Shown one piece after another: positions 32,355-63,339 of a DNA stretch of 64,000 nucleotides; the first letter of the stretch is position 1, and each line of letters opens with the position of its first letter. The stretch is from Sipunculus nudus. Its lineage: Eukaryota; Annelida; Sipuncula; Golfingiida; Sipunculidae. Made by a program: the position numbers and the translations under genes. The DNA lies in contig CM049310.1 in the NCBI GenBank assembly GCA_026874595.1, positions 79,043,056-79,107,055 on the forward strand. The letters are read 5' to 3'. The notes beneath the pieces are model-generated. The model saw nothing but the letters and a program-made list of their open reading frames with translations, did no database searches and was not told the DNA's origin.

Positions 32355-34973
32355 TGTATCCGCCAAAACAGAGTTTTGCGGATACTATGTTTTCAGCTGG
32401 CCGCCGCCGCCGCCGCCGCGTAGGTGTCCGGAGAACTCCTCCGTCACATGTGAACTGCTGCGCCCCGATTTTGTTTTGACCTCTGACCTTTCCTTTGCGC
32501 TCTGCGTCCGTTTGTGCGTCTGTTTCCACACATAAACCCACATATCTCGGGAACCGTTTGACCGATCAGGAAAATTTTTTTGCACAAATGTAGCCCTCGG
32601 AGAGCTTTATAACATACACCAAAAATGGTGGCGCCACCTGCAACCATGTTTGCACAGTGTCCATCTGTTCGTCTGCCTTGGGTTAAAATCACTCATATCT
32701 CTGCAGTGACTTGACTAATTCACCTGAAATTGGGCATGCGTAAACATCCTGGATAGCTATTCTGATTTTATGACAGGTGGCGCCACCTACATTCACATTT
32801 ACGCTGCAGACATCCAAGCTCATATCTCGGGAACCGTTTGACCGATCAGGAAAATTTTTTTGCACAAATGTAGCCCTTGGAGAGCTTTATAACATACACC
32901 AAAAATGGTGGCACCACCTGCAACCATGTTTGCACAGTGTCCATCTTTTCGTCTGCCTTGGGTTAAAATCACTCATATCTCTGCAGTGGTTTGACTAATT
33001 CACCTGAAATTGGGCATGCGTAAACATCCTGGATAGCTTTTCTGATTTTATGACAGGTGGCGCCACCTACATTCACGTTTACGCTGCAGACATCCAAGCC
33101 CATATCTCGGGAACCGTTTGACCGATCAGGAAAATTCTTTTGCACAAATGTAGCCCTTGGAGAGCTTTATAACATACACCAAAAATGGTGGCACCACCTG
33201 CAACCATGTTTGCACAGTGTCCATCTGTTAGTCTGCCTTGGGTTAAAATCACTCATATCTCTGCAGTGACTTGACTAATTCACCTGAAATTGAGCATGCA
33301 TATACATCCTGGATAGCTTTTCTGATTTTATGACAGGTGGCGCCACCTACATTCACGTTTACGCTGCAGACATCCAAGCTCATATCTCGGGAACCGTTTG
33401 ACCGATCAGGAAAATCTTTTTGCACAAATGTAGCCCTTGGAGAGCTTTATAACATACACCAAAAATGGTGGCACCACCTGCAACCATGTTTGCACAGTGT
33501 CCATCTGTTCGTCTGCCTTGGGTTAAAATCACTCATATCTCTGCAGTGGTTTGACTAATTCACCTGAAATTGGGCATGCGTAAACATCCTGGATAGCTTT
33601 TCTGATTTTATGACAGGTGGCGCCACCTACATTCACTTTTACGCTGCAGACATCCAAGCTCATATCTCGGGAACCGTTTGACCGATCAGGAAAATTCTTT
33701 TGCACAAATGTAGCCCTTGGAGAGCTTTATAACATACACCAAAAATGGTGGCGCCACCTGCAACCATGTTTGCACAGTGTCCATCTGTTCGTCTGCCTTG
33801 GGTTAAAATCACTCATATCTCTGCAGTGACTTGACTAATTCACCTGAAATTGGGCATGCGTATACATCCTGGATAGCTTTTCTGATTTTATGACAGGTGG
33901 CGCCACCTACATTCATGTTTACGCTGCAGACATCCAAGCTCATATCTTGGGAACCGTTTGACCGATCAGGAAAATTCTTTTGCACAAATGTAGCCCTTGA
34001 AGAGCTTTATAACATACACCAAAAATGGTGGCGCTACCTGCAACCATGTTTGCACAGTGTCCATCTGTTTGTCTGCCTTGGGTTAAAATCACTCATATCT
34101 CTGCAGTGACTTGACTAATTCACCTGAAATTTGGCATGCGTATACATCCTGGATAGCTTTTCTGACTTTATGACAGGTGGTGCCACCTACATTCACGTTT
34201 ACGCTGCAGACATCCAAGCTCATATCTTTGGAACCGTTTGACCGATCAGGAAAATCTTTTTGCACAAATGTAGCCCTTGGAGAGCTTTATAACATACACC
34301 AAAAATGGTGGCACCACCTGCAACCATGTTTGCACAGTGTCCATCTGTTCGTCTGCCGTGGGTTAAAATCACTCATATCTCTGCAGTGGTTTGACTAATT
34401 CACCTGAAATTCGGCATGCTTATACATCCTGGATAGCTTTCTGATTTTATGACAGGTGGCGCCACCTACAATCAAGTTTACGCTGCAGACATCCAAGCTC
34501 ATATCTAGGGAATCGTTTGACCGATTGGGCCAAAATTTTGCATGTGTATAAATCTCACATAGCTCTCTATCATATGCAAAACTGGTGGCGCCACCTGCAG
34601 CCATGTTTGCACAGCTCCCATCTGTTTAGTCTGCCATGGGATAAAATCACTCATATCTCGGCAGTGGTTTGACATATCTGCCTAAAATTTTGCAAGTTTA
34701 TACATCCCCGACAGCTCTCTTGATTTTATGACAGGTGGCGCCACCTGCATTCTAGTTTATGCAGCAGATATCCAAGCTCATATCTTGGGAACCGTTTGAC
34801 CGATTGGGCCAAAGTTTTGCATGTGTATAGAGCTTTCTGGATTTTTTCGTAGGTAGCGCAACCTACATACACAATTTGGCTGCAGACATCCATGCTAATA
34901 TGCAACACTTCACCCGTTCCACTCTGATTTAGGCAGATACAAGTAGACGCTTGTGGACTACCCGTATTCTAGT
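32355..34973 (+). mobile_element. Helentron/HINE-like family 1, copy H1 with satellite array
   Basis: The 5' terminus TGTATCCGCCAAAAC folds with GTTTTGCGGATAC. The mate of the first ten bases appears near the 3' end (here degraded, GGCAGATACA), followed by a hairpin (GTAGACG/GGACTAC) and TATTCTAG. A CCGCCG-rich tract follows the 5' end. The bulk is a 280-bp tandem array. No Rep or helicase coding is present. Confidence 0.85.
32530..34860. repeat. 280-bp dimeric satellite array in H1
   Basis: Units repeat at exactly 280 bp (for example GGTGGCGCCACCTACATT and variants at 32777, 33057, 33337, 33617, 33897 and 34177, with a near copy at 34456), then decay. Each unit is two about 140-bp halves. 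Both contain CTCATATCT and TTTGAC-type blocks; one ends in TGGTGG(C)GCCACCTGCA and the other in ACAGGTGGCGCCACCTAC. The same open frame recurs in six units only because of the repetition. Confidence 0.95.
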
Positions 34974-35953
34974 TGGATGAGAATTAGTGGCATTTCATAA
35001 CCATTGTGTGGAATTAATTGTTGTAAATAGTATTATATAGCTATTCTTGCTGTAAATTAACCAGTGTGGCTGCTGTTGCAGTTTCATAGCTGAATATGCA
35101 GCCAGGAACATTTTTGGTCCAAATTCTCATTTGGGTCAGGTATCTTCTTGTCAGTATCCTTTGGCTGAGTGTTCCTTCTTGAAATGCAAAGCATGCTGTA
35201 AATCTGAGGCCAGGTGGGAACATAATGTTTCAAGTACTCAGGACATATAGGTCCCCTGTCAAATCAGGTAAGAGTCAATTTAGGTTCTTTTCTTGCAGGC
35301 TCCACTGACCAGCTGTTTCCGGGGCATATTTTGCAACGACCCTAGGGTATATGCATCTGATGTAGCCATAACTACCACGTGTATATGAATATCTTGAAGC
35401 AGTTAATCAATCCCTGCATGAAATTGTGCCATTTTAACTACACTTTGGAAAAGCTGTTATTATACCATTAAAGTTAATGGCAATTTGATAAAACTTGGAA
35501 TTAATTTGACTCATGAATATAGATTTCTGATCTAACATACTGATTTTTAAAATGAAACTTGGAAAGAAATAGTTTCTCTGTTTCACATCAAACATGTATA
35601 AGAAGGCAGGCCAGTTTTCATTTAATGTTCATACACTTTATAGGACCTAGGAGTGAATCTTAACTCATTTTAACTGTTAGTTAAGCAGAAAAAAAACAGA
35701 CAGTGCACAAGCACTGATATTGTGCTGGAAATCAGCAATACAACAATGAAATAATATTTTAAATCTGAATTCCTCTTGAATGAAAAGAAAAATGAAATAA
35801 TTTATAAACTGTTTACCTTGGAGACTGTCAGTATGCAATATCTTCTAAGATTTAATGATTGTCTGAAAATTATTTGATCTTCCATGTATTTCACCTGTAT
35901 AAGAGTATTACTAACTGTACATCTCTAAAGATTTACAATTTGCAGAATTTTTA
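34974..35953. other. intron 1 sequence, no gene recognised
   Basis: Nothing supported beyond the resumed MITE edge at 34974. Confidence 0.4.
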
Positions 35954-36237
35954 TGAGCTCAGCTGAGCATACTAGTCTGGCCATCAGTCAGGCTGTCTGG
36001 CTGTTATCAAGGCACAAAATATAAGTGTTTTACCTAGAAACTTCTAACTTTACATAAAAGTCAGTCCTGCATAAATCTCTTTGCTCACCAAAAAAGTAGG
36101 TCACTGTGACCTACATTTTGCGAGTTATGCATGTATTTTTGTTTTCAGCGCTTTGAAATTTAGATTTTTAGCACTCTAAGATTTTAACATTTCAGACTGT
36201 TAAATCAGCTGAGTGTCATGACTCATGGGTCACTTGT
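35954..36237 (+). mobile_element. AGCTCAGCTGA element, short complete copy
   Basis: About 284 bp from GAGCTCAGCTGAGCAT to ATCAGCTGAGTGTCATGACT, then a small hairpin GACTCATGGGTC and CACTTGT. The inverted CTCAGCTG/CAGCTGAG pair is terminal at the 5' side but subterminal at the 3' side, followed by a hairpin. That is the same design as the Helentron-like families. It contains AGGTCACTGTGACCT. Confidence 0.7.
36098..36112. promoter_or_regulatory. perfect nuclear-receptor palindrome (ERE-type)
   Basis: AGGTCA-CTG-TGACCT, the consensus inverted repeat with 3-bp spacer recognised by estrogen-receptor-type nuclear receptors. It sits inside a mobile element in ABCA2 intron 1. Sequence match is exact; function is not shown. 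Confidence 0.45.
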
Positions 36238-36944
36238 TACTACTAAAATTCCCGAGCAATTAACATGATATGTAGATTTTAAATTTCTACTCATCTTAGC
36301 AAGTGTTCTAATATATCAAATCTCTCTTTATTTCACAATGCTCGTTCTCCAGGAATGTGACTTACCATTATGAAGTTGAACATCATGGTCCACCAGTCTC
36401 ATGTAACTTAAGTTCATTGATCCTTTGGCTCCTCATAAAATTTAATGAGCAGGCATACATGATGTTAGATTTGCGTGTTTTGTTCAGAATTTTTAATGAT
36501 ATATTGGCTGTACACCTAAAAGACTATCTCTTGTGGCATACCTGGAAAATCCATTGTTTGTTGGTATTTGGTATGGATTCAGTACACCATCACTCAGATT
36601 AATAATCCTGAAACAACATGCAGGTATATTTAATACCTGCATATGTACCGATTACTACCTAAAGGCCATTTGTTTATACTGCTGTATGCATGTGATTTTC
36701 CAGCTTCAGGGCTTTCACTAACAAAGGGGCACACATCTGTGACACTCAAAATCAAACTTGGATGCTTGGTTCTTGGGTCCAGGGGTCCAACCAAATGCTT
36801 AAAATTTATGGCTGTTGGATCAATAGTAGTCACTGACTATTGCCGACTACCTTAAAACCCAGATAATTTTGTAAACACTGTTCTGACGTCAAACCCATAT
36901 ATTTTACAGATGTCAAATAATCATATTATGACAAAATGTGTAAT

Positions 36945-37779
36945 TGTATCCGCCAAAACAGAGTTTTGCGGATACTATGTTTTCAGCTGCACGCCGCCGC
37001 GGCGTAAGTGTCTGGAGAACTCCTCCGTAACCGCTGGGCGGAATTTTACAAAACCCGGGATTATGTTCGGGTCCAGGTGAACTGCTGCGCCCAGATTTTG
37101 TTTTGACCTCTGACCTTTCCTCTGCGCTCTGCATCCGTTTGTGCGTCTGTTTCCACACATAAACCCACATATCTCGGGAACCGTTTGACGGATCAGGAAA
37201 ATTTTTTTGCACAAATGTAGCCCTTGGAGAGCTTTATAACATACACAAGAAGTGGTGTCGCCACCTGCAACCATGTTTGCACAGTGTCCATTTGTTCATC
37301 TGCCTTGGGTTAAAATCACTCATATCTCTGCAGTGATTTGACTAATTCACCTGAAATTCGGCATGCAGGTGCAGACATCCAAGCTCATATCTCGGGAACT
37401 GTTTGACCGATTGGGCCAAAATTTTGCATGTGTATAGATCTCACATAGCTCTTTATCATACCCAAAACTGGTGGTGCCACCTGCAGCCATTTTTGCACAG
37501 CGTCCATCTGTTTGTCTGCCACAGGCTAAAATCACTCATAAACATATAGTGGTTTGACTTATCTGCCTCAAATTTTGCATATGTATACAACTTGGATGGC
37601 TTTCTGGATTTTGTGGTAGGTGGCGCAACCTACATACACCATTTGGCTGCAGACATCCATGCTAATATGCAACACTTCATTCTATTTCCCCTTGCCACTC
37701 AATCCATGCCTCACTTCACCCTTTCCACTCTGATTTAGGCGGATACACATAGTCGCTTGTCAACTATCCGTATTCTAGT
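36945..37779 (+). mobile_element. Helentron/HINE-like family 1, copy H2
   Basis: 835 bp: TGTATCCGCCAAAAC hairpin start, CGCCGCGG-rich segment, about two 140-bp satellite halves, GGCGGATACA subterminal mate, hairpin TAGTCG-CTTG-TCAACTA, and TATTCTAGT end. Non-coding. Confidence 0.85.
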
Positions 37780-40043: not shown

Positions 40044-40735
40044 ACATTCCATACGTTATACTACTAGAGTACATGAACATTCCATACGTTATACTACTAG
40101 AGTACATGAACATTCCATACGTTATACTACTAGAGTACATGAACATTCCATACGTTATACTACTAGAGTACATGAACATTCCATACGTTATACTACTAGA
40201 GTACATGAACATTCCATACGTTATACTACTAGAGTACATGAACATTCCATACGTTATACTACTAGAGTCCATGAACATTCCATACGTTATACTACTAGAG
40301 TACATGAACATTCCATACGTTATACTACTAGAGTACATGAACATTCCATACGTTATACTACTAGAGTACATGAACATTCCATACGTTATACTACTAGAGT
40401 ACATGAACATTCCATACGTTATACTACTAGAGTACATGAACATTCCATACGTTATACTACTAGAGTACATGAACATTCCATACGTTATACTACTAGAGTA
40501 CATGAACATTCCATACGTTATACTACTAGAGTCCATGAACATTCCATACGTTATACTACTAGAGTACATGAACATTCCATACGTTATACTACTAGAGTAC
40601 ATGAACATTCCATACGTTATACTACTAGAGTACATGAACATTCCATACGTTATACTACTAGAGTACATGAACATTCCATACGTTATACTACTAGAGTACA
40701 TGAACATTCCATACGTTATACTACTAGAGTACATG
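40044..40735. repeat. 33-bp minisatellite, 21 near-identical units
   Basis: The unit contains ATTCCATACGTTATACTACT and AGAGTACATGA. Because 33 is divisible by 3 and the unit lacks stops in some frames, long frames stay open on both strands (11-residue periods MNIPYVILLEY plus, MYSSSITYGMF minus). The only substitution is TAC to TCC, in the units starting at 40238 and 40502, exactly eight units (264 bp) apart. Not considered coding. Confidence 0.97.
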
Positions 40736-41940
40736 AATTTGGCTAAATTGGAAATTGTGCTCCAACAAAGAGAATGTGTTTACACAATTTATTTTGTACC
40801 TTAATGTCTTTGAAAACATTTCATACCAGCTTCTGAACTATATTAAAATGGATTCTTTAATCAGAATTGAAAAGGCAAATGCCCAATTCTGAATAAATTG
40901 AGTTTCAAATGTTTTAAAGATGCCTTGTCATTATAAACTCAGCAATATAAATTCTGAACAGTAAAATTATGAATGCATATATTAAACGTTTTAAGGGTTT
41001 GTGTAATATATTGATGTAGTACAGCCATTTGTTATCTGTCTAGTTTAAATGTATATAGTAATTTTTCACATTAAATGTAAATTAGTTTGCCCTTTATTTC
41101 ATCAGTCTCCCCCTCCTTCCTGCCCCACTACTTAATCTAAATTTTTAAATCAGATTCATTCATGGTTTATACAAAATGGGGTACTTACTGCATAAATAAT
41201 TTTATAACCAGCCCTTAATCAGAATGAAAAATAAAAGCAAGAAGTTGTTATTAGATAACAATAATTAGACTGTTCTTTGATTAACAGAATATGTTTTATC
41301 TTTCAATCTGAGATTGTGCTGTTTGCTTTCTTGGCATTATTAACTGTAATATTTTAGCCTCTTTTTGGTATACAAATGGTTGAATATTTGATCCTACAGT
41401 ATTCAGCTGTATACCCATCACCACCTGTTTGTTAAGCTATCAGACATACATTAAACATGTAGATCCACTTAGTCAGTATCTTCATATTTAAAAGACCCCA
41501 TCTCATACCACCAGTATAAATATACTGTAAATAAATAACATGAGAAATCATACAAATGGAAATATTATGTTTTATGCAGACTGCTATTTTCTTATGAACA
41601 AGAATGTTATAGGAAGATAGATTATTGCGTCCGCCAGGAGGTTATACGTACATCTCTGTTTGTGTGTGCATGTGTTTGTTCACAACATAACTCACGCAGT
41701 CCTGCACTGAATGTCATGAAATGTTCAGGGCATTTCGGGGATAGTCTAGTGAAGTCAAATTGATTAAATTTTGGTGTGGATCTAGATTCAGAAATGTCAT
41801 CAAGGGGTATTCACAAATGTACAGTCACTTATGGATGAATGAACCTGGGAATAAGGGCCGCATCAGTGAATGGCAGGGCTTGCATTCATAAGAATGCAGA
41901 TTTGTAGTTTTAAAGATAAAAGTATACATGATATATTTAC
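40736..41940. other. intron 1 sequence, no gene recognised
   Basis: 41630-41830 (GCGTCCGCCAGGAGGTTAT, 'CTGTTTGTGTGTGCATGTG', 'ACATAACTCA') reads like a fragment of another high-copy invertebrate element, but its limits are not visible. Confidence 0.35.
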
Positions 41941-41949
41941 CCTGTAGTG

Positions 41950-42795: not shown

Positions 42796-44423
42796 TAATG
42801 TTTTACTTTGCATATCTTTTAATCTCTTTAGTTACCGCATGTAATAGCAGTGTTCTATTATTCATAACCTTTTCATTTAGCAATACCAGGCTGGCAGCTG
42901 TCTTTGCCATAATGGTGATAGCTGCAGTTTGTGTAGCATAAAATCTGTATTTTATGGCTTGGAAATGTTACATATACAATAAGTCCAGTTATGTACACCT
43001 CAGTACCTGTTGCAGTATGTGTTGATTTCATAGGTGAGCACATCTGCACTCAGAATATAATATATTGCATCATAAATGAAATGGTACCATATATAAGATA
43101 TAAACACTCAAGGCTGCAGATCTGTAGTGTCATGGGCACTATGATGTATGGTAAAGCAGCGTGCAGGTTGGACTATAGTGCAGGGTAGTTAGAATAAATG
43201 CAAGATTCTTATGTATATTACAACATAAAAATCAAGTATTTCAAGACGTGGTTCTAGAGAGATATTGTGCCATGAATTATAATGACCCTATGAGTCAGAC
43301 CTTCTTCCGTTCCTGTAATCCTCAATACATGCTGTTTAGCGCTGGCTTTGAGGTGCGTTGAATACTATTGATTCTTGGAAAGGCCTGCAGGAGTTGTTTG
43401 TTGGATGTCGTCTTGGAGATAAGTGTCAGTGTCAAATGCATCCAGAGGCAAATGAGATTCTGAAATTGTGTACCGTCTGTCCTCATGAAACCTACTTCTA
43501 TTTGAAATATAGTTCGTTGTTCGACATTATAGTGTTAACATGATACATATATGAAATATCCAGGAAACTGAACCGATGCTGGTTGAGAAGTGAGGTGGCT
43601 TTTAGTGAGATGAAGTGCTAATGGATTTGATATTTTTATCTGCTCAAAGGATAGACTGCAAATAAAAATCTAGTCATATAAATCATGGATGATGTTTTAT
43701 ACATACACATTTTAATACCATGGTCATGATGTATTATTATTGGCTGAGGGATCAACATGATATTGCATAATGAACCCACGTTTCCTCATGGAAAAATATA
43801 GGCTTAGTGTTTAAGAGGCTTTTGCTATATCTTAATATACATGATTCTCTGATATATTATAAGTAAAAATCTTTATGGAAAAAAAGTTGTGAAAGCCAAA
43901 CATAGGTTCACTATGAATACACTAGGTGGGTGTCATCATGAAAATTAAAATATGGGCTAGCTCACCACAATGTTAGTATTAAAACATTTTTTTGAGTCAC
44001 TCGGTGCAAATGTTTAACCATCATTTTGAATTAACTCTGTCAACTTGTTTACCTCTCATGCATGTTACACAGTCACTCTCAGACAGGGGCAATCATGTAA
44101 GTGATTAGTGAGGCGTGGGCAGGTTTATAGCATTTTATTTCAGTTGATAAATTAATGTTTATTATAAATATTTGGCTGATGTCCATTATTCTGTAATTTA
44201 CAGGGTTTCATTTTAGCAGGGCCATTTCCTCTTAGCTTATCAAATGTTAATATATACATGAAAAACCAAGTAAAATATTGTTTGCTTAAGTATGAGCTAA
44301 ATAAATGCAGATACACACAGAAAGGACCTGTGAACTCATTAAATACTGATGAAAAGAAATATTTTAGAACCAAGGGACTTTTGGAACACCTGTCATAAAA
44401 CACTTGTAGTATTTAATATATAG
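42796..44423. other. intron 1 sequence, no gene recognised
   Basis: 43240-43470 is less AT-rich but holds only a short open frame with no motif or convincing splice pair. Nothing supported. Confidence 0.4.
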
Positions 44424-45692
44424 AATTGGTTTAATTAAATATGCAATTTAGGTTAATTTATATTGTTTTTGTAGCCTTTTTATTTCAAACATGTATATAA
44501 AATGTTGAAGGTTTATGATAGATCTGCTTTAAGAACCTTATAATTAATACAAAATAATACAGAAAAGGTGCAGTAACAGCAAAGTGTTTATTTAGATCAT
44601 AAAATTTTATTCAAATTATCTCATTGAATAAGTAAGAAATGAAAATTACCCTGGCTTATTGCATTTTATAGAAAAATGATCTCACAGCACAGTCAATCTG
44701 CCCCTCTTGTGTGTTTATGAAGCACTTTTTATGCAGTAGGTTTACATTATATTTACTTTATTCCATTGGAGAAGGCCTACTGGTTTAATAGACATTTAAA
44801 CCGTGCATCTTTTCATCTAGAAAAAATGTTGGTTTTGTTGTTGTATCATTTCCTAAAGTGTGATTCCAAATGATACATGTATATGAATTTACCAATGTAA
44901 TGTGCAACCCCATTATTTCTGGCATTCAAATTGGATGGTATGAGGTGACATAAATAATTGTCAGTTGTGAGTATCCCTGCCCCCGCAATTCATATTATCC
45001 AGTATTAAATGCTGTTAGTATTGACAGGAAAAGCAGACAGCTGTACTACCCATATATAACCTGTCACAGGTAGGATAAACTACTACACAATGCTTAATAT
45101 TGATGAGCTTATTTCATCAATAAAAGATTTAACTCCTGTCTGCATAAAATAGACTACTGTGTTCCCTGTATATTAAAAATGTATGACACTAATGAATTAG
45201 ACATGGTTCACTGTACATTATATTTTGTGAACAAAAATTACTGTTTATCTTGGTTAGCATGGAATTGACATGGCACTGAAATGACAATTAATGTCTGACT
45301 GCAAAAACTCACTTAAACCAGACAGAGCCAAGTGAACTTAAATATTAGTCATGCAGGCCTAAAAATATAATTCTATGTTGTTAAATGTAGCCTTCAGGGA
45401 CACAGTAAAATACATGAAGCTGTATATGGCTGACCACATAAACTCACTCCTACAATACAACAGATGAGCAGAGCCCATAAACTTTAATGCTTATCATGTC
45501 AAAAAGAGTTTGAAAAAATATTTTTCTGTTTCCTTATATAAGTGCCCTTCTGAAACTCTAAATAATATATCAGAGTTTGTTTTCTTTTCTGATTGGCACA
45601 GCACAGCTTTGGGCAGTCCTCTGTAGTTGTGTGGTTCCAAGGTATGGTTGTGAGGCACCACCTGTATAAATTTTAAACCCCTGCATCAAAAT
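44424..45692 (+). repeat. segmental duplication, part A copy 1
   Basis: Begins AATTGGTTTAATTAAATATG and matches 54129-56600 along its whole length (shared ACTCCTGTCTGCAT, GCCTTCAGGGACACAGTAAA, TGGGCAGTCCTCTGTAGTTG), minus two later insertions in the other copy. It keeps the uninterrupted target sites of both: near 44457 for Helentron H4 and near 45312 for a MITE. It ends where a 7-kb insertion begins. Confidence 0.9.
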
Positions 45693-47179
45693 TTTTTTTA
45701 GCGAACCTGTATACTTATGTGATGGTGTGTTGTCGTGCATCGTGTGTCGTGCGTCATGCGTCGTCTGTACGTTAACCATAGCTATCTCAAAAACGGCAGG
45801 AGCTAGCATCACCAAATTTTTTGCAAATAATCAATCCTCCAGAAAACTATATCGGATTTTGTTTATTTTTTCTCTAACTGCATTTTCTTAGATTTTATAG
45901 GGAAAAAGCTAAAAAAGCTTTAAAAATCTTCTTCTCCGAAACTGTCCAGCCAAATTGTCCAATATTTCACAGAAATGATCCCTGGAACAATCTTTCTGAA
46001 GTTTGTTCGAATGGTTCCAGTTCGGAGATTTTTGGCCGAGTTACTGGAGGTTGAACTTTGTTAACTGGGCAAAAAAGCATATTAAAATTTAAATCTCAGA
46101 AACGGCTGGAGCTATCATCACCAAATTTTATGCCAATGCTGGTCACATAGGTCATATCTGAAATTGAGGTATTGGTGGTGCCACCTGCATCGGCCTTTTT
46201 TGTACGGGGTCATCAGTGCCTGTATCACACTGAGGGCTACAAAAAACTTCTTCTCTGAAACCATATGGCCAAAATGTTTAATATTGCACAGAAATGATCC
46301 TAGGGTAGTGCTTTCTGAAGTTTGTTCAAATGGTCTCTTTTCAGTGACTTTTGGCTAAGTTATGGGAAGCTGAATTTAGTCATATGCCATAACAGCCCAT
46401 TTTAGCTCAGTGGCTACAAAGATCTTCTTCTCAAAAACCACTGGGCCAGATTCTTAAATCTCACACATTAATTATCCTCAAATGTTGATAATTCAAGTTT
46501 GTTCAAATGGTTTTGGTTCAGTGCTTTTTGGCTGAGTTACAGGAAGCTGAACTTAGCCAGGTTGCTGTATCTTCCTATATGAGTTATAAACCTGCGAAAC
46601 GTTTTTTCGACTGATGCCACTAAAGCAAGTTTGTTAAATATTTTACAAGAATAATCCCTACAATAATTCTTATAATAATTGTCATTAATGGTTCCACATG
46701 AATGATTTTTGGCTGAATTATGGAGATTGAATTGAGTCATTTTACCATATATGTTAGCTGTGTGATGCTGTTACATCTAGCCTGGCACCATTTTATCAGC
46801 ATCTATTACATCATGCCACTAGACATTTAGACTTCAGGTTATCTTTGGTTAATATTGACAAGAAAGTTTTTTTAAAAGCTTTTAAAAAATTTAGATTTAT
46901 GATTTAAGTTTTTCATCATACCAGGCAATGTTACTATCATGGATATTCTTCTCTCTGTTGCTATATAAAGACAACTGTACGTGGATTATAAATTATTGGT
47001 ATCCATACTCAACTTAATTCAAGAATTTGCCATCAATGAGATATATCAGTATTTTAATTTTTGCATTCAGTATGCATCCGTAATAATTTTACGTATATTC
47101 CTTATTTCTTTTTTTTTTTAAACAAAGTCAGCTGAAAAGCATTTTGTTTTGGGAAAATAAATTTCAAAGTTATTTCAAG

Positions 47180-47966: not shown

Positions 47967-50900
47967 TGTATCCGCCAAAACAGAGTTTTGCGGATACTAT
48001 GTTTTCAGTCGGACGCAGATGCTGCCGCCATCACTGCATAGGTTTCCGGAGAACTCCTCCATAACCACTAGGCAGAATTTTTAGCTCAGCTGACTATAAG
48101 TCATCTGAGCTATAGTCGTGGTCCATTGTCCGTAGTCCGTCCGTCTGTCCGTCCGTCCGTCCGTCCGTCCGTCCGTCCGTAGATGTGGCACGTTTTGAAA
48201 CCGTAAGACCTAGGAATCCAAATTTCAGCATAATGTTAGATGTCCCCAAGATCTCCTACCAAGCCGAAAACTGGGTCTTTGCGACTTCATTCCTTTGAGA
48301 AATTAAGGAAAAACCTCAAATTTTTATTAAAAACCTATTTTCACACTTTAGGACTGCCTAATATCAAAACCACTCATCTGTTTTTCCTTATATTTCCTAT
48401 AAATAATCCTCTATATAATTCCTATGAACATGCCAGAAATTAGGTCTGTATTATTTATTTTAAAAAAGTTATGGGCCCAAACATAATGCATTTTGTAAAT
48501 AATCAGGAAAGAAATTTTATCACTTTACACAAAACTTGTTTAAGCTAAGCACTTTTTTTCCAGTAATATTACTTTTATTAATCAAAATTAAATTGTATAC
48601 CCAAAATTAGATCAAAATCTTTTAAATTTTTAAAAATATGAGCAAAAATAAAAAATTGGTACCTTAAATTTTGCCCAAATTTGACCATGGCACGTTTTTT
48701 TTGCTGTAACTGCTGTGGATTTAATTTTCACAGCATGTTTTTGTTAGCATTTCAACTGTTAACACCAAAAATTTGAAACCAGTTGATCAAAAACTGTAGA
48801 TTTTATTCAAGTTTTCAAGCACCATGTCACATATTGCTAGTGTTATGCAGTTTGCTAAAGCTCAGCTCCCGAGCTTCAGCTCTAAGTTCCTTAAATTTGG
48901 CATACAGTTAGATTTCTCCAAAATCCCCTACCATGCCAAGAATTTGGTCACTAGGACTTAATTCCTTCGAGATATCAATGAAAAACTTCATTTTTCCATT
49001 ATAAACCCAATGTTATACTTTAAGACTGCCTAATATCAAAACCACTGATCTGACTTTGATCATATATAATATACATATTTTTCTATACATTCACTATGCA
49101 CATGCCAGAAATGATGTCAGTATTGTGTATTTTTTTTAAGTTATGGGCCCAAACATAATGCACTTTGTAAAAAATCAAGAAATATATTTACTCCCTTAAC
49201 AAGGGCATTGCTGAAGCTAGAGATTTTTTTTGTCAGGGATGTAACATTATTTAATCAAGATTCAATTGAATACCCAAAATTAGTTCTGAATTTTTCAAAT
49301 TTTATAAGTTATTAGTATAAATATAAAATTAGTACCTTAAATTTTGCCCAACTGTGACCAAGGCACGTTTGTTTCCCGTGAGCACTGTTGATATAATTTT
49401 CATATCATGCACACATAAGGATTTCAGCTTTTTAGTTTAGAAAGCTGAAAGAAATTTGCCAAATATTGTAGCTTTTATTAATGTTTTTTATGAGACCCTG
49501 TCAGACTTTGGCTCTCTCCAGCCCCTCTTGAGTCACCTGTATGTTGACCTTGTTGACCTTTCATCAAATTATGCACGCTTGAGCGAAGAATCCAGGCAGC
49601 TTATGGCCAGCCACAGTTGATCCAGGTGTTCAACCCAACTCATCTAGTAGTTTTAACCAACAACATAACAATAAACAATAAATTAATAAATTTTTATTGG
49701 TTTTTAATAACAAATTAAAGAAAAATAGAAAAGGAATTTGTTAGTTTATAATAACAGGAAATTAACTTGCAGTTACTGATGATATAAGAATCTTGTATCG
49801 ATGGGTAGAATGTCACATATTCCAAATAACACCATGCAGTCACCATGGCATTTTTCAGTTCATTTTTAATGATAAAGAAGTAAATCATATTATTCATTAC
49901 TAATCATTAAGGATTATATGAAGGAAATTAATGATAGACAAAGATGCAGTTGATAATATTAATCTAGATTCCTACTGTGTCTAGTGTGTTCATTGATGTG
50001 AAATTAGTCCAAAATGAATTTTTTACAGTTATTTTTTAATATAAATAAAAGCCATAAAACCAGGTACTTATGATCATTATTTAAATGTGTGAAATTTGTA
50101 TATTCTGGATTCTCAACATCATTGTTTGGTGAAAACTGAATAAATACCAGACATGGTGCGAATACTTTGTAATTGTATTTAAATACGAATATGATTATGT
50201 ACTCTATTATAAAATTTCTTGCATAAAGAATGGGAATTCAGGTAAAAATGAAAGTATATGAATACTCGTGCAAATACTTTCAAAATGTATTCATGAATGC
50301 ATTCATGAATATATTCTTTAATATTATTTTAATAATCATATCAGTTATATTTCATTTTAAAAAATCATATGATTCTCTTATTATTTTTAATAAAAATTAT
50401 ATTTTGGACAATATTTGTAATTTTTTTAATAAATAGTTAAACTCTTATATGTTCTGCTTATAAGTTATATGGCCAAGTAAAAATCATTGTGACAGTAGTA
50501 CTCCATTTGTTAATAAAATAAATGAAATAAATCCTCTTCCCTGTCTCCAAAGGTACTATCAAAATCATACATAAGCTAAACAACAACAACTCATAATACA
50601 GCTTATATTTATTACCACACAAAACCAGCATGTGCCTCATTTCTAAATAATATTTTTTATCATATATAACAGCTGAGTGTCGTGACCCATAGGTCCCTTG
50701 TTTAAAATTCGGAATTATGATCAGTCACATGTGAACTGCTGCACCCTCATTTTTGGTTGACCTCTGACCATTCCTCTCTGCCCAGCGTCACTTTGTGTGT
50801 CTGTTTCCACACATAAACCCACATATCTTGGGAACCGTTTGACTGATAAGCAGAAAGATTTTGCACAAATGTAGCCCTTGGAAAGCTTTATCACATACAC

Positions 50901-52577
50901 TAAAAATGGTGGTGCCACCTGCAACAATTTTTGCACAGAGTCCATATGTTCATCTGCCTTGGAGATAAAAACACTCATATCTCTGCATTGGTTGGACTTA
51001 TCCACCTGAAATTTTGCATGTGTATACAGCCTGGACAAATTCACATTTAAGCTGCAGACATCCAAGCTCATATCTCAGGAACCGTTTGACCAGTTGGGCC
51101 AAAAGTTTGCATGTGAATAGATCTCCCATAGCTCTTTATCATATGCAAAACTGGTGGCGCCACCTGCAATCATTTTTGCACAGCGTCTGTCTGTTTATCT
51201 GCCACAGGATAAAATCACTCATATCTCAGCAGTGGTCTGACTTTTCCACCTGAAATTTTGCAGGTTTATACATCTTGGATAGCTTTCTGGATTTTATGGC
51301 AGGTGGCACCACCTACATTTATGTATACGCTGCAGACATTCATGCTTATATCTCAGGACTGGTTTGACATGTCCCCCTGAAATTATGCATGTGTATAGAA
51401 CTCACATAGCTCTTAATCATAAACAAAAAATGTGGTGCCACCTGCCACAATTTTTGCACAGCGTCCGTCTGTTCATCTGTCTTGGCATAAAAACTCTCAT
51501 ATCTCTGCATTGGTTGGACTTATCCCCCTGAAATTTTGCATGTGTATACATCCTGGACAGCTTTCTTGATTTTATGACAGGTGGCGCCACCCACATTCAC
51601 GTTTACTCTGCAGATATCCAAGCTCATATCTTGGGAACTGTTTGACCGATTGGGCCAAAATTTTGTATGTGTAAAGATCTCACATAGCTCTTCATCGTAG
51701 GCAAAACTGGTGGCGCCATCTGCAACCACTTATGCACAGTGTCCATCTGTTCATTTGCCATGGGATAAAATCACTCATATCTCAGCAGTGGTTTGACTTA
51801 TCCACCTGAAATTTTGCAGATTTATACATCCTAGACAATTTTCTCGATTTTATGACAGGTGGCGCCACCTACATTCACATTTACTCTGCAGACATCTAAG
51901 CTCATATCTTGGGAACTGTTTGACCGATTGGGCCAAAAGTTTGCATGTGTATAGATCTCACATAGCTCTTCATCGTAGGCAAAACTGGTGGTGCCACCTG
52001 CAACCACTTATGCACAGTGTCCATCTGTTCATCTGCCTTGGGATAAAATCACTCATATCTCAGAAGTGGTTTGACTTATCCACCTGAAATTTTGCAGATT
52101 TATACATCCTGGACAGCTTTCTCGATTTAATGACAGGTGGTGCCACCTACATTCATATTTACTCTGCAGACATCCAAGCTCATATCTTGGGAACCGTTTT
52201 ACTGATTGGGCAAAAATTTTGCTTGTGTATAGATCTAACATAGCTCTTCATCATAGGCAAAACTGGTTGCACCACCTGCAACCACTTATGCACAGTGTCT
52301 ATCTGTTCATCTGCCTTGGGATAAAATCACTCATATCTCAGAAGTGGTTTGACTTATCCACCTGAAATTTGGCAGGTTTATACATCCTGGACAATTATCT
52401 TGATTTTATGACAGTTGGCACCACCTATATTCACTTTTACACTGCAGACATCCATGCTAATATGCAACACACCTCACTCTATTCCCCTTTCCACTTAATC
52501 CATGCCTCGCTTTACCCATCCCACCCTGATTTCAGCAGATACACATAGTCGTGCTTGTCGACTACACATATTCTAGT
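47967..52577 (+). mobile_element. Helentron/HINE-like family 1, copy H3 with nested insertion
   Basis: Start TGTATCCGCCAAAAC hairpin; end TATTCTAGT after a partly decayed hairpin (TAGTCG...CGACTA). Comparison with H2 and H5 shows that 48082-50702 interrupts it after GCAGAATTT. Downstream, 50720-52450 is an array of about 140-bp halves (CTCATATCT, TTTGAC, GGTGGCGCCACC variants), more diverged than the H1 array. Confidence 0.8.
48082..50702 (+). mobile_element. AGCTCAGCTGA element, 2.6-kb long copy nested in H3
   Basis: Starts TAGCTCAGCTGACTATAAG folding with CTGAGCTATA. Then comes a (GTCC)n tract (48134-48180) and an internal direct duplication of about 670 bp (TTATGGGCCCAAACATAATG at about 48470 and 49141). 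It ends CAGCTGAGTGTCGTGACCC, ATAGGTCCCTTGT. The insertion point is between T and T of the host H3. It is the long relative of 35954-36237. No protein is recognised. Confidence 0.75.
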
Positions 52578-54125: not shown

Positions 54126-54163
54126 AAAGAATTTGTTTAATTAAATATGCAATTTAGGTTAAT

Positions 54164-55070
54164 TGTATCCGCCAAAACAAAGTTTTGCGGATACTATGTT
54201 TTTGACCGGGTTCCGCCGTCGCTGCGTTCGTTTCTGGAGAACTCCTCTGAGACTAAAGGACGGATTTTTCCGAAACTTACACAAATTATCGGGTCACATG
54301 TGAACTGGTGCCTAACCAAGTGGCCTTGACCTCTGACCTTTCCTGTCTGCCCAGCGTCCGTTTGTGTGTCTGTTTCCACACATAAACCCACATATCTTGG
54401 GAACTGTTTGACCGATCAGGAAAAAAATTTTTACACAAATGTAGCCCTTGGATAGCTCTATAACATATACAAAAAAGGGTGGCGCCACTTGCAGCCATTT
54501 TTGCACAGCGTCCATCTGTTTGTCTGCCTTGGGTTAAAATAACTCATATCTCTGCAGTGGTTTGACTAATTCACCTAAAATTTGGCATGCGTATACATCC
54601 TAGATAGCTTTCTTGATTTTATGACAGGTGGCACCACCTACATTCAGGTTAACACTGCAGACATCCAAGCTCATATCTCGGGAACCGTTTTACCAATCAG
54701 GAAAAAATTTTTACACAAATGTAGCCCTTGGATAGCTTTATAACATACACAAAAATGGTGGCGCCACTTGCAGCCATTTTTGCACAGGGTCCATCTGTTT
54801 GTCTGCCTTGGGTTTAAATCACTTATATCTCTGCAGTGGTTTGACCAAATTACCTGTAATTCGGCATGTGTATACATCTTGGATAGTTTCTCATTAAATC
54901 AAATAACAGATGGCGCCACCTACAATCATGTTTATGTGGCAGAGATCCATTCTAATATGTAACACACGTAACTCTATTTCCCCTGCCACTCAAACCATGC
55001 CTCACTTCACCCGTCCTACTCTGATTTTGGCGGATACACATAGTCGCTTTTCGACTACCCGTATTCTAGT
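54164..55070 (+). mobile_element. Helentron/HINE-like family 1, copy H4, empty site known
   Basis: 907 bp: start TGTATCCGCCAAAAC with the CGGATACTATG fold-back, GACCGGGTTCCGCCGTC, two to four 140-bp halves, GGCGGATACA subterminal mate, hairpin TAGTCG/CGACTA, and end TATTCTAGT. The duplicate at 44451-44470 reads GGTTAATTTATATTG without the element, so the insertion lies in AAT|TTA with at most 1-2 ambiguous T bases. Confidence 0.9.
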
Positions 55071-56882: not shown

Positions 56883-58000
56883 TATTGAGCTATTTAATGT
56901 ATTGTTTTATAATGTTCAGGATTTGTGAGAAAAAAAAATTCTAGATATAGGCTTTGTTTGCGCATCTGAAAATGTCAGGAGTGTACATGCCAGGAATGAT
57001 CCGTTGCCTGACCCTGGCTGCTCCTGGCTTTGACAGTTTGGTGACTTTTGACAAGTGTTAGAAAGCAGTTCCCAGCTATAATGGGGAATGTTTTGCACAA
57101 AGCACAGATGGAACTCACAAATGTCAGAATTGTTATGTTTGCTCCTATAAATTAAGTTTCACAAAGGCCACCTCTCCAAACTGGAAGGTCTGCCAGCATG
57201 TATTATATGAGTGCTTATTCATTTTCTTTTATGTTTGTTTGACGTTTTTTTGAAGCCCAGTTGAAAATTTTTTGCCCATTAAGATTAACTTGAAAAATGT
57301 ACTTTATTCAAATTTAGGGACTGGGGACTGCTCTCTGATTGTGCTATATGTACTTCTGTCAAAAACTGGTAATCTTTAAAGATTTAGCTGCTCAGTGCTA
57401 ATTATTGTAAATGAGCCAATGAGGCCGCATGGCATAACATGAGACAGTGAAGGAGCTCTGAGTATTCTTAGGCAAAAAAAAAAAAAAAGAGAGAACTGTT
57501 GGAAGTATTTGCAAGCAAGTTCAATTTGGCTGGTGACTATCACTCAGTTACCCTTAAGCCACTGGATGCCAACCAGCAGTGCTAAATGTTTGATCAAAAC
57601 ACTGCACCGGACATCCCTGTAAAATGAGTGTACATGAGCTATTTGATTGATTCAAAGGTCTTATTCGTTATTCATTAAATAGATGCCAGAGAGGGTTGAG
57701 GAATCAAGGTCTGTGAATGCTTGGTCTTGTCAGAGAGTATGAAGATGGTCCTTCATCTCATTGATGTTTTATTCATCATCATTTGTTGATATTTTGCAAT
57801 ATTTGTTAGATATTCTTCACGATGTTCATCATCATTTTTCGACATTGTGGAATATTTGTTGGATATTCTACACCATGTTCATCATCATTTGTTGACATTG
57901 TGGAATATTTGTTGGATATTCTACACCATGTTCATCATCATTTGTTGACATTATAGAATATTTGCTAGATATTCTACACCATGTTCATCATCATTCGTAG
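56636..58000 (+). repeat. segmental duplication, part B copy 2
   Basis: Homologous to 52741-54125 with small indels and substitutions. It passes into a much longer 53-bp minisatellite array than copy 1. Confidence 0.9.
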
Positions 58001-58675
58001 ACATTGTTGAATATTTGTTGGATATTTTACACCATGTTCATCAACATTTGTTGACATTATGGAATATTTGTTGTATATTCTACACCCAAGTTCATTATCA
58101 TTTGTTGACATTGTGAAATATTTGTTGAATATTCTACACCATGTTCATCATCATTTGTTGACATTGTAGAATATTGGTGGATATTCTGTGCCATGTCTAT
58201 CATTGTTTGTTGACATTGTGGAATATTTGTTGGATATTTTTCACCATGTTCATCATTATTTGTCACCATTGTGGAATACTTGTTGGATATTCGGTACCAT
58301 GTTCATCATAATTTGTTGACATTGTGGAATATTTGTAAGATATTTTACACCATGTTCATCATTTGTCAACATTGTGGAATATTTGTTAGATATTCTACAC
58401 CATGTTTATCATCATTTATCTACATTGTTGAATATTTGTTGGATATTCTACACCATGTTCATTATCATATTTGACAACATTGTGGAATATTTGTTGTATA
58501 TTCTACACCATGTCCATCATCATTTTTCGGCATTGTGGAATATTTGTTGGATATTCTGTACCATGTTCATCATAATTTGTTGACATTTTGGAATATTTGT
58601 TGGATATTATACACCATGTTCATCATCATTTGTCAACATTTTGGAATATATATTTTATATTATTCACCATGCTGA
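57770..58675. repeat. 53-bp minisatellite, about 17 units
   Basis: The unit includes ATTGTGGAATATTTGTTGG, ATATTCTACACCATGTTC and ATCATCATTTGTTGAC. Divergence between units is moderate. The array ends about 30 bp before the ABCA2 exon 2 acceptor. A short array of the same unit sits at 53870-54115. Confidence 0.93.
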
Positions 58676-58706
58676 TATCAGTGTTTATATACTTTCTCTT
58701 TGTCAG

Positions 58707-58800
58707 TGGGTGGTGGCCTTTGAATTGTTCATCCCACTGGTGCTCTTCATCATCTTGTTGTGTATACGTAAAAAACAGCCGGCATACCCAATAGGAGCAG
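58707..58800 (+). CDS. ABCA2: ABCA2-like transporter, coding exon 2 (first membrane span)
   Basis: Reads WVVAFELFIPLVLFIILLCI, a single strongly hydrophobic span, then RKKQPAYPIGA, and ends one base into the next codon at GCAG|GTAAGT. The acceptor is TTTCTCTTTGTCAG. It continues exon 1 exactly in frame (…KRRNP then WVVAFE…), as in vertebrate ABCA2 as I recall it. The span anchors the N terminus and leads into the first large lumenal loop. Confidence 0.93.
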
Positions 58801-59036
58801 GTAAGTTATCGCCTTTCAAAATAATTAATTCTATTTATAAATGTAAAACTTATTTGTTTTAAGAAGTGCTATTGAATTAGGTTAAAGTACATTACTTGAC
58901 TGCTGTTGCTATTATTTATACAGAAAATTTCCTTCTAAGTTTTTTTTTTACGGTAGTTAATCTCAACTATAAATTTGAATAGTCTCACACTGTATGAGGG
59001 AGGATTACTAAAATCTAATTTTCTTTTTATTTTCAG

Positions 59037-59148
59037 TTCACTTCACAGCTAAGCCATTACCGTCAGCAGGTGTGCTGGCTGTGATGCAAGCTTTTTGTAC
59101 AGGAGGTGTCAAGGATGATAATGGCTTTGTGAAATTTCCAAATGCCAC
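59037..59148 (+). CDS. ABCA2: ABCA2-like transporter, coding exon 3
   Basis: Preceded by TTTTTATTTTCAG. Completes a Val codon and reads HFTAKPLPSAGVLAVMQAFC, then TGGVKDDNGFVKFPNA, ending two bases into the Thr codon at CAC|GTAAGC. PLPSAG-LAVMQ and DDNGF are conserved-looking ABCA features at the start of the first extracellular/lumenal loop. Intron 2 is only 236 nt. Confidence 0.93.
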
Positions 59149-59476
59149 GTAAGCTATAAAAAATTCATTTGATATGAAAATCTCACTTCATATGATTTGT
59201 GAAAAAGCAGCAATCATATCTTACCTTGAATTATATGCCATGCATAACACCATTGTAAATTTGTTTCTTTATAATTATATAAAAAATATATTAAACTTGA
59301 AAAAGACTCACCTGTTTTGATTTTACTTTGATGATTAAATTTTTCCCTGCTTTGGTTAACATTGTCAAGAAAACAACCTTATGAAAAGGTATATATTATA
59401 GTATAGTATAAATGTATTCTTGATATTCAGAGTAATGTGTGGCATTTTTTATTAAGAACAAAATATTCCATATGTA

Positions 59477-59637
59477 CAGTGAAACATGTCTATAAGAACA
59501 CCTGTTAAATAAGACCACCCGTGCATTAATCATTAGCATTGACTCAAGTTATGGCTGGCCTGTCTAATGAGACCACTTGTCAATTTAGACCCCTATCCTC
59601 CAGTCCCAAGAATGGTCTTATTACACAGGTTCTGCTG
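59477..59637. mobile_element. Tigger-type MITE, 161 bp
   Basis: CAGTGAAACATGTCTATAAG at the left and, in reverse, CAGCAGAACCTGTGTAATAA at the right, flanked by TA on both sides. The CAGT-type ends and TA target fit pogo/Tigger mobilisation. Non-coding. Confidence 0.75.
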
Positions 59638-60257
59638 TAAATATAGAAACTGGACTTTATTATTCACAATACATAACTGCTTTAGATATATATTATATGT
59701 TATATTTAAAGATAAATAAATTATACATCATGTATATTATATATTACTGCTTATACGTTCAAAAGATCAGTAAAAATGTATGAATACAGTTTCTGTAAAT
59801 ATAGGCCTTATAATCATGGCACTCATGACGCTGCAATAAAAATTAAGATCTTATTTCATTAAAGAGCAGCTGGGGACGCAGAATATGAAAGTAAAGTGTA
59901 GTTAAAAATTCGCTTATTTAATCAAGGTATGGTAAAACAGTGTGTAGAAGACTTGATTAAACATTAACTGATTGTGACTGTATCACATGAATCTGATTAA
60001 GTGGCTCATGTTACATGGGAAATATCTGTAACTCTTGCTAAACAAAGAGTGATATGTACATTAAAACAGTGATAACTGTAGTCAGGTCATTTGCCTGGTA
60101 TACTTACAGTAAGATTAGAATTCCTGATAAAATAAAAAGTGATAATACGATTTGCTTAATATTAGCTTTGTTAAGTGGGGAAATATCTGCCAAGTGTGGT
60201 GTGAGGTTTTACACAGATGTTCAGTTTAGTATGGTGTGATATAATAGATATATAATA

Positions 60258-60373
60258 CAATAAAACCTAGCCCAACGACCACCTCAGTTTAGTGACCACC
60301 TCAAAATAATTACCACTTTTTCATGGTCCCAAGAATTTTTTGCTCACTTAGACATAATTTTAAGGTTTCACTG
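60258..60373. mobile_element. Tigger-type MITE, 116 bp
   Basis: CAATAAAACCTAGCC at the left and, in reverse, CAGTGAAACCTTAAAA at the right, flanked by TA. It includes ACGACCACCTCAGTTTAGTG. Non-coding. Confidence 0.7.
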
Positions 60374-62222
60374 TATATATATAATAATTGCTATAATTAA
60401 TAAAGGCAATGACAAATATATAATGTAAGAAGACGATGATAAATGTATAATAAATAGAGAAAATGGCAAATATATAATGAATTAAAACAAGTGTCCGATA
60501 TGGGGATGCAAACCCTGTGCAGAAGTAAATGTTCAAAGTTGGTGCCTTTACTTTGAATGTCAGTTAAACTTAGTGTTATTCCTGGGATTTTTTTAATGAA
60601 AATTATTTTGAAAGACACCCTGGATATCATGGTATTGCTGTCCGTGATTAAATAACACAACAAACAACAACCATGCCACCCAACCCACTCTCCAAAGCTG
60701 TACAATAATTTACTGACCCCTTTCAGGGAAACGGCACTTGGGACGATGTCATTGTCATCTGTGACGTCGCGACTGGCACTCCTAAGATGGCCATATTGTC
60801 ACATGCTACGTCCCTGTGTAAACAAATATGCTATAAAAAACATAAAACACTCATTCCCAGGTTGTTTACACATGGATATATACCAAAATTGAACTTCTTG
60901 AACATTTTCATAAAACCAACCAATATGATAAATTTCAATAACATCTGTAATACTTTTCTTCTCAGATCTTGGGAACAGACACTCACACACACACACAGAA
61001 TCAAGTGAAAACAATAACCCTCGCACAGGGTTAAAAAAGAAAATGACAAATTAATGATTAATGGGGACATTGGCAAATATAATGACATATACTGGTATAA
61101 AAAAAATAGAGGGAGTGACAAATTTATGACTAATAGAGAAAATGGTAAATATATACAATTTATTGATGATGGCAATTATTATAATAAATAAAGACAAAGA
61201 AAAGGAAATTATGTAATTATGACAGTTGTTATGATTTGATGATAATTGCTTGTAATTGTTATGTTGGTTTCCAACAGTTGGAACCTCTTTGGAATAATAT
61301 GACATATCAAGGGGTGTCTATATTTAATGTTACTCAGTAGAATTCATAACACAGGATAATTGGGTTATATGAGTATATAGTTTTTATAATACTGAAGCAA
61401 ATGTTTACAGAGGATTATTAGACAATATGATAATTTTAGTGTATAGATTTATATTTGGAACAGCTGTGCACACAATAATCAGGGATCCAATTATATATGA
61501 ACCAATAAAGGTGTCATAAATATGAACAAATTACATGTTGATTCATAAAATATGCTAAGCTTTGTATTTTTAATAAAATTTATATGATTGGTACAAAAGA
61601 ATAAACATGTATTGGACAATAAGCAATGTTTAAGCTTTACAAAACCTTACACTCTTCAGTATAACAGTTTCTCTGACCTAAGTATCTTTCATCCCTTTAT
61701 GTAGGTCATCAATTTAAGGTGAGCTTATGTTCAGGTTGAAAAACATGTGTTCATTGCCTGAATTTTGTTTTGTTCATTTTGTGGCCTCTTTTAAAATGGA
61801 TGAGACAGTGTTCAGTCTTCCCAAAATTGTTCCCATCTTTATTTTGATTTATATACTGTTTCTTCTTGAGGATGAAACAGTATGTGTTCGTTAAAATTCA
61901 AGATTCATTGGAAAAATTAAATCTTTATTGTATATGAGTTGTTTATTCAGTCTCTGAATCATTTATTGTGAAACTAATTCTAACAGTTATTTGTATGATT
62001 TATTTATACAAGAGAAACATGTTTGCTTGTCTAAATGTTTGCCAGTATTTAATTTGTTTCTTCCGAATCTCTAAATATCTCAGAAGTATTCATCCTGTTT
62101 AGACCCATGTCTGAACATAATTTATTTGTGACTGAATCAATCATACACTTAGAATAAGAAATTACACCAGATTTCAAGATATAAATTCCTTTTCTTTATT
62201 GAATTTGTGTTTTATTTTTCAG

Positions 62223-62380
62223 GGTCAGTGACTTTCTGGAACAGCTGAACAGTGTTGCTCACCACAACAACTTCTTTGAGCCAGGGTTTTCTGTTCAGGA
62301 ACTAGACCACTTGCCTAACATCTATCGCAGTATTATAGAGGACCCAGCAGCAATTCACGATGCTTTTGCTCATGCTCATG
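62223..62380 (+). CDS. ABCA2: ABCA2-like transporter, coding exon 4
   Basis: Acceptor TTTATTTTTCAG. Completes Thr and reads VSDFLEQLNSVAHHNNFFEP, GFSVQELDHLPNIYRSIIED, PAAIHDAFAHAH, ending one base into the next codon at CATG|GTAAGG. It continues the first large lumenal loop. With exon 3 it forms FPNATVSDFLEQL, resembling the NST-V-LLERL region of vertebrate ABCA2. The NAT sequon spans the splice junction. The rest of the gene lies beyond the right edge. Confidence 0.92.
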
Positions 62381-62677
62381 GTAAGGGGGTAGACACTCTT
62401 GCGCAGCAGGAGTGGGAGTGTGTTTTGGTGGAAGGGAAGGGAAGCATTAACATTAAGTATAGCCATCAAGATTTTCTGAAATTAACAGAGAAGAATATTT
62501 TGTGATGTATTACTGAAAATCTAACAAAAACAGATTGTATTGTGTAGTCAATGAACTAATCTTTTGTAAAATGATTGAAATAAGATTCTGATGTCAAGCC
62601 AGGGCTGGACCCAGGATTTCTGAAAAGGTGGGGGAGGGGCCTGGGGCTAATCCATGAAAAGGCTAATAAAATATAAT

Positions 62678-63339
62678 TGTATCCGCCAAAACAGAGTTTT
62701 GCGGATACTATGTTTTCAGCTGCATGCCACCGCCGCCGCAGCTGCGTAGGTGTCCGGAGAACTCCTCTGTAACCGCTGGGCGGAATTTTACGAAACCCGG
62801 GATTATGTTCGGGTCACATGTGAACTGCTGCGCCCCGATTTTGTTTTGACCTCTGACCTTTCCTCTGCGCTCTGCGTCCGTTTGTGCGTCTGTTTCCACA
62901 CATAAACCCACATATCTCGGGAACCGTTTGACCGATCAGGAAATTTTTTTTACACAAATGTAGCCCTTGGAGAGCTTTATAACATACACAAAAAATGGTG
63001 GCGCCACCTGCAACCATTTTTGCACAGTGTCCATCTGTTAGTCTGCCTTGGGTTAAAATCACTCATTTCTCTGCAGTGACTAGACTAATTCACCTGAAAC
63101 TCGGCATGCGTAAACATCCTGGATAGCTTTTCTGATTTTATGACAGGTGGCGCCACCTACATTCATGTTTACGCTGCAGACATCTAAGCTCATATCTCGG
63201 GAACCGTTTGGCTGCAGACATCCATGCTAATATGCAACACTCAATTTTCCCTTGCCACTCAATCCATGCCTCACTTCACCCGTTCCACTCTGATTTAGGC
63301 GGATACACGTAGTCGCTTGTCGACTACCCGTATTCTAGT
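62678..63339 (+). mobile_element. Helentron/HINE-like family 1, copy H5 (662 bp, best preserved)
   Basis: Start TGTATCCGCC with the CAAAAC/GTTTTG stem; CCGCCGCCGCAGCTGCG tract; about three 140-bp halves; GGCGGATACA subterminal mate; perfect hairpin GTAGTCG-CTTG-TCGACTAC; end TATTCTAGT. It lies in ABCA2 intron 4. No protein-coding capacity. Confidence 0.9.

Follow-up and report, generated by a model that had tools for sequence, protein, structure and literature searches.

The window analysed here is a 64,000-nucleotide stretch of the Sipunculus nudus genome (C5:79043056-79107055; the genome searched comprises 1.43 Gb in 153 contigs), and it holds a repeat family with the architecture of HINEs, elements associated with the rolling-circle transposons known as Helentrons. 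The family made up of copies H0-H5 is called HINE-1 below, and further types are referred to as the HINE-2 type and HINE-3 (Table 1). The initial annotation had listed five copies sharing a 5′ end, and H1-H5 do all start with an exact TGTATCCGCC; the list was incomplete, as it overlooked a sixth and decayed copy, H0, which was recovered by blast with the 5′ module of H5. Bounds of HINE-1 copies were taken from TGTATCC to CTAG, so that the table gives the last G of CTAG as the end of H1-H5; TT comes next in all five. The 3′ end of H0 was not recognised. Exact TGTATCCGCC occurs eight times in the window (both strands), where 0.02 occurrences were expected and none of 100 shuffles reached eight. 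With one mismatch allowed there are 12 matches and 1.63 expected, so that isolated near-matches elsewhere are possibly due to chance.

The copies have no coding capacity: no open reading frame of at least 120 aa lies inside H1-H5, and the sole one in any HINE-1 copy (148 aa, in H0) has no Pfam match. Rfam gave no match, and neither did scans of viral contigs and of a genome-contig set. Two other elements had also escaped the initial annotation: the HINE-type element within H3 (48082-50700) and a minus-strand family (9303-7015).

Table 1. HINE-type elements and their parts in the window (positions counted from its first base).
Feature	Position	Strand	Remarks
HINE-2-type copy	5151-5819	-	one box monomer (5296-5399); 3′ bound approximate
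HINE-3 type	7015-9303	-	related ends; 336-bp core array; box in core; ATCTAG|TTT end
H0	16360 to ~17575	+	decayed HINE-1 copy; 5′ end and old core array
H1	32355-34972	+	HINE-1 copy; core of 8 dimeric 280-bp units
H2	36945-37778	+	HINE-1 copy
Paralogous empty site of H4	44418-44869	+	
H3	47967-52576	+	HINE-1 copy split by second HINE-type element
HINE-2-type element nested in H3	48082-50700	+	no box within 3 mismatches
H4	54164-55069	+	HINE-1 copy; paralogous empty site within window
H5	62678-63338	+	shortest, cleanest window copy of HINE-1
H5 5′ terminal module	62678-62715	+	TGTATCCGCC and inverted copy; hairpin
H5 3′ terminal module	63298-63338	+	inverse repeat, hairpin, CTAG end

Ends of HINE-1

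The first 38 bases are 97-100% identical among H1-H5 and the following 75 bases 60-92%; at the other end, the final 42 bases have a mean identity of 88.6% versus 70.6% for the preceding 70, the latter figure being depressed by a gap in H1. The ends carry asymmetric (sub)terminal inverted repeats: TGTATCCGCC stands at the 5′ end and its inverse some 31 bases short of the 3′ end. This subterminal inverse, reported for the family in the initial annotation, is exact (GGCGGATACA) in H2, H4 and H5, three of the five copies, and takes variant forms in H1 and H3. The 5′ repeat and its adjacent inverted copy form a strong hairpin in H5 and H4, the two copies that were folded (z -7.5 and -6.3, respectively). 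The 3′ hairpin appears in the best fold of H3, H4 and H5 with modest z scores (-1.1, -1.9 and -2.2, respectively). Its 7-bp GTAGTCG/CGACTAC stem, proposed earlier as a common feature, is complete and exact in H5 only; over the five copies, pairing is retained in 30 of 35 cells.

Copies across the genome

HINE-1 ends are very numerous: exact TGTATCCGCC occurs 10,475 + 10,458 times on the two strands of the genome, with 343 + 323 for the reversed control, and 4,872 exact occurrences (2,438 + 2,434) were counted for a strict 35-base version of the 5′ end, with none for its reversed control. Individual copies were studied in 70 stretches (30 loci and 40 regions) of contig C1, which hold 69 distinct 5′ ends after removal of repeats. 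A 3′ end was recognised by pattern for 45 of the 69. Genome copies differ in length mostly by steps of about 280, though a few do not follow this spacing. One left flank is common to 11 of the 69 (L012, L024, L025, L030, L032, L036, L041, L043, L048, L053, L064). When 10 of the 11 were aligned, HINE-1 was found within a larger repeat that ends in a HINE-2-type 3′ terminus, with divergence after the terminus; HINE-1 has thus been carried along here as a passenger.

Target and empty sites

Near-identical left flanks were counted once, which leaves 58 independent flanks and 35 independent two-ended copies. T is found at position -4 in 56 of the 58, A at -2 in 52 and T at -1 in 56; TNAT precedes the element in 49, giving a target of TNAT|T, and the frequency in the window of TNA before TT is 0.093. 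A T follows CTAGT in 34 of the 35 two-ended copies. Flank matches of 1 base occur in 32 of the 35, which is the shared T (shuffled mean 32.1); matches of 2 bp number 4 (shuffled mean 2.1), and those of 3, 4, 5 and 6 bp number 1, 0, 0 and 1. Among these 35 copies no target duplication beyond the shared T thus rises above shuffled pairing, and the constant duplication of at least 3 bp that had been set in advance as the finding that would overturn a T|T target was not seen in the genome copies.

Sequences lacking the insertion point the same way. As the initial annotation had proposed, the window retains the pre-insertion sequence of H4: the joined flanks align straight through the junction to 44418-44869 (84% identity over 456 columns). 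A second and cleaner case lies outside the window, within a Helentron on contig C9, where a 1498-bp HINE-1 copy (L107+L109) sits upstream of a beta1-group Rep/helicase gene. The C17 paralogue of this locus (L084) is without the insertion and matches 119 of 120 joined-flank bases; identity is 98.6% in the left flank (555 bases) and 95.2% in the right flank (1452 bases). Both of these beta1 copies have an older HINE-1 upstream of the gene, and the C9 copy gained its second HINE-1 about 58 bases beyond the shared older one.

A further join claimed within the window did not hold. H1 had been placed in the end of a miniature inverted-repeat transposable element (MITE) with an intact form at 29637, and the stretch 29580-29760 gave no alignment. 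Its left flank does match a repeat (18938-18561, minus strand), but the right flank does not extend that repeat: past the junction only 4 bases can be aligned, one of them mismatched. H1 was therefore rejected as an empty site, and the window has one HINE-1 empty site rather than the two independent joins first described. Together, the H4 and C9 sites and the 35 two-ended copies support insertion of HINE-1 between T and T without a long target duplication, as originally proposed.

Rep/helicase loci in the genome

The genome holds at least 143 matches to Helitron_like_N (PF14214), a lower bound in that 150 of 195 candidates were scored, and several of them lie in open frames of 1,626-2,426 aa; none of 14 control genomes has a match. 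The 3′ sides of 23 of the 143 loci were read. At 12 of the 23, a same-strand HINE-2-type 3′ terminus is present where it would be expected or close by. The four beta1 copies, which are about 98% identical, lose similarity at this terminus, as do the three beta2 copies (80-82% identical). In the epsilon group, similarity between L085 and L096 ends there as well; L085 and L097 remain alike past it, perhaps through local duplication. For L092 and L093 the comparison covers only 57 shared bases. Exo_endo_phos-type domains are present in five of the six loci whose candidate stretch was scanned (L080, L081, L082, L083, L102), and a 70-aa piece of L085 scanned for the endonuclease gave no match. L084 has a Herpes_teg_N-like domain and L079 a DUF6570 domain. 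With the terminus placed at Rep loci, some of them with an endonuclease, it is very likely that HINE-2-type elements have been moved by endonuclease-bearing Helentrons. The link runs through the 3′ ends, as none of the four 5′ stretches read (L079, L084, L094, L107) showed a recognisable matching 5′ end. By its shared 3′ terminus, then, a second HINE type of the genome is tied to endonuclease-bearing Rep/helicase elements.

How HINE-1 may have moved

HINE-1 is a large HINE-type family of an already known kind. Read from the sequence, it has defined ends, a TNAT|T target, duplication-free empty sites, no coding capacity and a core that changes by whole 280-bp dimers. The copies H0-H5 are, with a probability of about 0.88, non-autonomous HINE-type rolling-circle transposons moved in trans by a Rep/helicase protein. 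Such a protein would read the 5′ hairpin with its inverted repeat at one end and the 3′ hairpin with CTAG(T) at the other; one strand would then be displaced, possibly made circular, and inserted between two T's. The family offers a base-level insertion rule for a HINE-type family (TNAT|T, no duplication), drawn from 58 flanks and two empty sites.

Several observations weigh against this account. A Rep/helicase/endonuclease protein bounded by HINE-1 ends was sought, and none of the 23 loci read on their 3′ side, from among the 143 matches, has the HINE-1 3′ end; in the alpha/delta group, two copies are 96% alike through to the end of the compared sequence, which stops short of their 3′ end. 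H1 and H2 lack the 3′ hairpin in their best fold, and covariation in its stem does not exceed that of shuffles (one two-sided change; 291 of 500 shuffles). Both empty sites have two T's fewer than the filled ones, and these T's cannot be assigned to a side: insertion at TNA|TT, between A and T, fits equally, and a duplication of TT is formally possible. Every sampled copy comes from a single contig, C1, and 24 of the 69 sampled 5′ ends are without a 3′ end, in part where the stretch reaches only 1.5 kb past the 5′ end.

HINE-type architecture, the broader part of the initial class assignment, stands; to call the family a Helentron outright is too strong, because asymmetric inverted repeats and end hairpins also mark Helitron2, which lacks the endonuclease, in the passages of PMC5148889 that describe it. 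HINE-1 behaves like a HINE, and its mover may be a Helentron or an endonuclease-less Helitron2. In the latter case the rolling-circle mechanism would be the same and the family would not be strictly Helentron-associated, an option we regard as unlikely but worth keeping in view: the TNAT|T target and an end hairpin with a GAA loop (13 of 58 copies) match the Helitron2 elements FoHeli1 and FoHeli2 as those passages present them, and the lack of HINE-1 3′ ends at the Rep loci is in keeping with it, but endonuclease domains occur in most of the loci scanned, and an endonuclease-less mover with HINE-1 ends was not found either.

A canonical Helitron, read as TTGTATCC...CTAG and inserted between A and T, is improbable. 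CTAG is compatible with the CTRR end of such elements, A precedes T in most of the 58 flanks, and the unassignable junction T's leave room for this reading. Window copies, however, begin with TGTATCC (TGTATTA in H0) preceded by T, and not with the 5′ TC of canonical Helitrons; these are described, in the relevant passages of PMC4067079 and PMC5148889, without inverted repeats or a 5′ hairpin, and the T at -4 equals the A at -2 in strength. Still less credible is a cut-and-paste MITE with a 2-bp TT duplication: the two extra T's at both empty sites would suit it, but the ends are asymmetric, the 3′ end has a hairpin and 2-bp flank matches do not go beyond shuffled pairing. That no transposon is involved, the copies having spread by segmental duplication of flanking DNA, has in its favour the local duplication around H4 and the flank common to 11 sampled copies, but it is already refuted by the junctions, with 58 differing left flanks at identical junction points and two empty sites.

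Core repeats and the palindromic box

Between its ends, HINE-1 has a core of tandem repeats. In H1 the array unit is 280 bp and consists of two monomers that are 58-60% alike (three units compared). Units 2-7 are 94.6-98.9% alike and the last unit has its nearest counterparts in H3 and H2, a pattern consistent with expansion of the array within the element. Near the end of almost every core monomer stands the 12-bp palindrome GGTGGCGCCACC (the box), the only perfect palindrome of that length with more than two copies in the window, AT runs aside. It occurs 23 times exactly and 54 times within two mismatches in the window, where simulated sequence gives an expectation of 0.95. With the box left out of the profile, 52 monomers reach an E of 0.01 or better, and 46 of them have the box within two mismatches, compared with 23 of 4,404 random stretches; most of the 52 belong to H1-H5, and the 22 monomers used for training had been selected by the box. 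Outside H1-H5 the same profile finds 12 monomers (one in the HINE-2 type, two in HINE-3, seven in H0 and two in an old fragment), nine of them with the box. A profile that includes the box has clear matches in HINE-3, in the HINE-2 type (5296-5399) and at 46078, the best match among 11 control sequences having E 0.14. In the C1 sample all 45 two-ended copies of HINE-1 bear the box, with 307 boxes in total.

Three features are unusual: how sharply the TNAT|T rule holds, the box common to several types, and the tie between the second type and endonuclease elements. The least expected is that the palindrome is kept in the core repeats of three HINE types; HINE-3, for one, has both core monomer and box in common with HINE-1. 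The nested element in H3, without a box, counts against its presence in every HINE. Origin of the core monomers by read-through of the 3′ end was considered and is unsupported: in 12 comparisons of monomers with 3′ ends, the score was reached by 14-263 of 300 single-letter shuffles.

A longer form of the box, AGGTGGCGCCACCT, reads AGGTGGCGC from either strand, which we take to resemble the core of the motif of the insulator protein CTCF. One speculative and improbable idea is that the box is a binding site for a host chromosome protein, kept by rolling-circle families with differing ends while their monomers diverged. Were this true, very many symmetrical sites would be scattered genome-wide, in arrays that alternate spacings of about 149 and about 130 bp; a functional box would explain how arrays retain one short motif amid drift elsewhere. 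For a squid, two reviews speak of domains bordered by CTCF-like sites, in passages that do not mention GGTGGCGCCACC, and none of the papers matched in a search on the box and CTCF contains the 12-mer.

Comparison with known systems

HINE-1 resembles Cg_HINE of the Pacific oyster, with which it was compared by description. In the parts of PMC7492417 that describe it, Cg_HINE likewise has a 5′ inverted repeat with an adjacent inverted copy, a microsatellite-like stretch, a short satellite-like array, a 3′ inverted repeat with a palindrome, and a T-rich target without duplication. HINE-1 differs in that two diverged monomers make up its core unit, a dimer of 280 bp, and its target is resolved to TNAT|T; here, moreover, related monomers lie inside differing end types, whereas the oyster repeat cluster is tied to one end pair. 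The oyster HINEs could not be related to any autonomous element, according to the Discussion of PMC7492417. HINE-Mo and DINE-1, as portrayed in the corresponding sections of PMC4067079, share with HINE-1 a palindromic repeat near the 5′ end, a 3′ repeat and a hairpin that lie about 40 and about 11 bases, respectively, before the 3′ end, a T-rich target and duplication-free empty sites; for them autonomous partners with the same ends were found, and for HINE-1 none at the loci read.

FoHeli1 and FoHeli2 of Fusarium oxysporum resemble HINE-1 in their end hairpins, asymmetric inverted repeats, GAA loop and TNAT|T target (the figure legend of PMC5148889 prints TNAT|T, and a text passage TNAT and A). 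They differ as autonomous fungal elements that have no endonuclease, and the passages on them do not mention a satellite core. Mobile elements with short satellite arrays are also represented by Pearl/CvA, DTC84, MgE and the BIV160/Cg170 satellites of bivalves in the passages of PMC7492417 and PMC5139131 devoted to them; monomers in this group keep short motifs although they diverge, a likeness to the GGTGGCGCCACC monomers that is again one of description only. The searches made did not find HINE-1 in print under its sequence: of five strings looked for, only the two 10-letter ones occur among the literature matches listed.

Other features of the window

For the HINE-2-type element nested in H3, H5 and H2 act as the empty site. 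Once joined, the junction has 7 T's versus 4 in H5, which indicates either terminal T's or a TTT duplication. The region 45700-46700 consists of degenerate repeats, includes one box monomer (46078-46190) and is possibly a further HINE type, although its ends were not found. At 40044-40737 lies a 33-bp tandem repeat (21 copies at 99%) that is open on both strands. On the minus strand, the frame at 11374-12378 encodes a glycosyltransferase family 2 domain and is likely a host exon.

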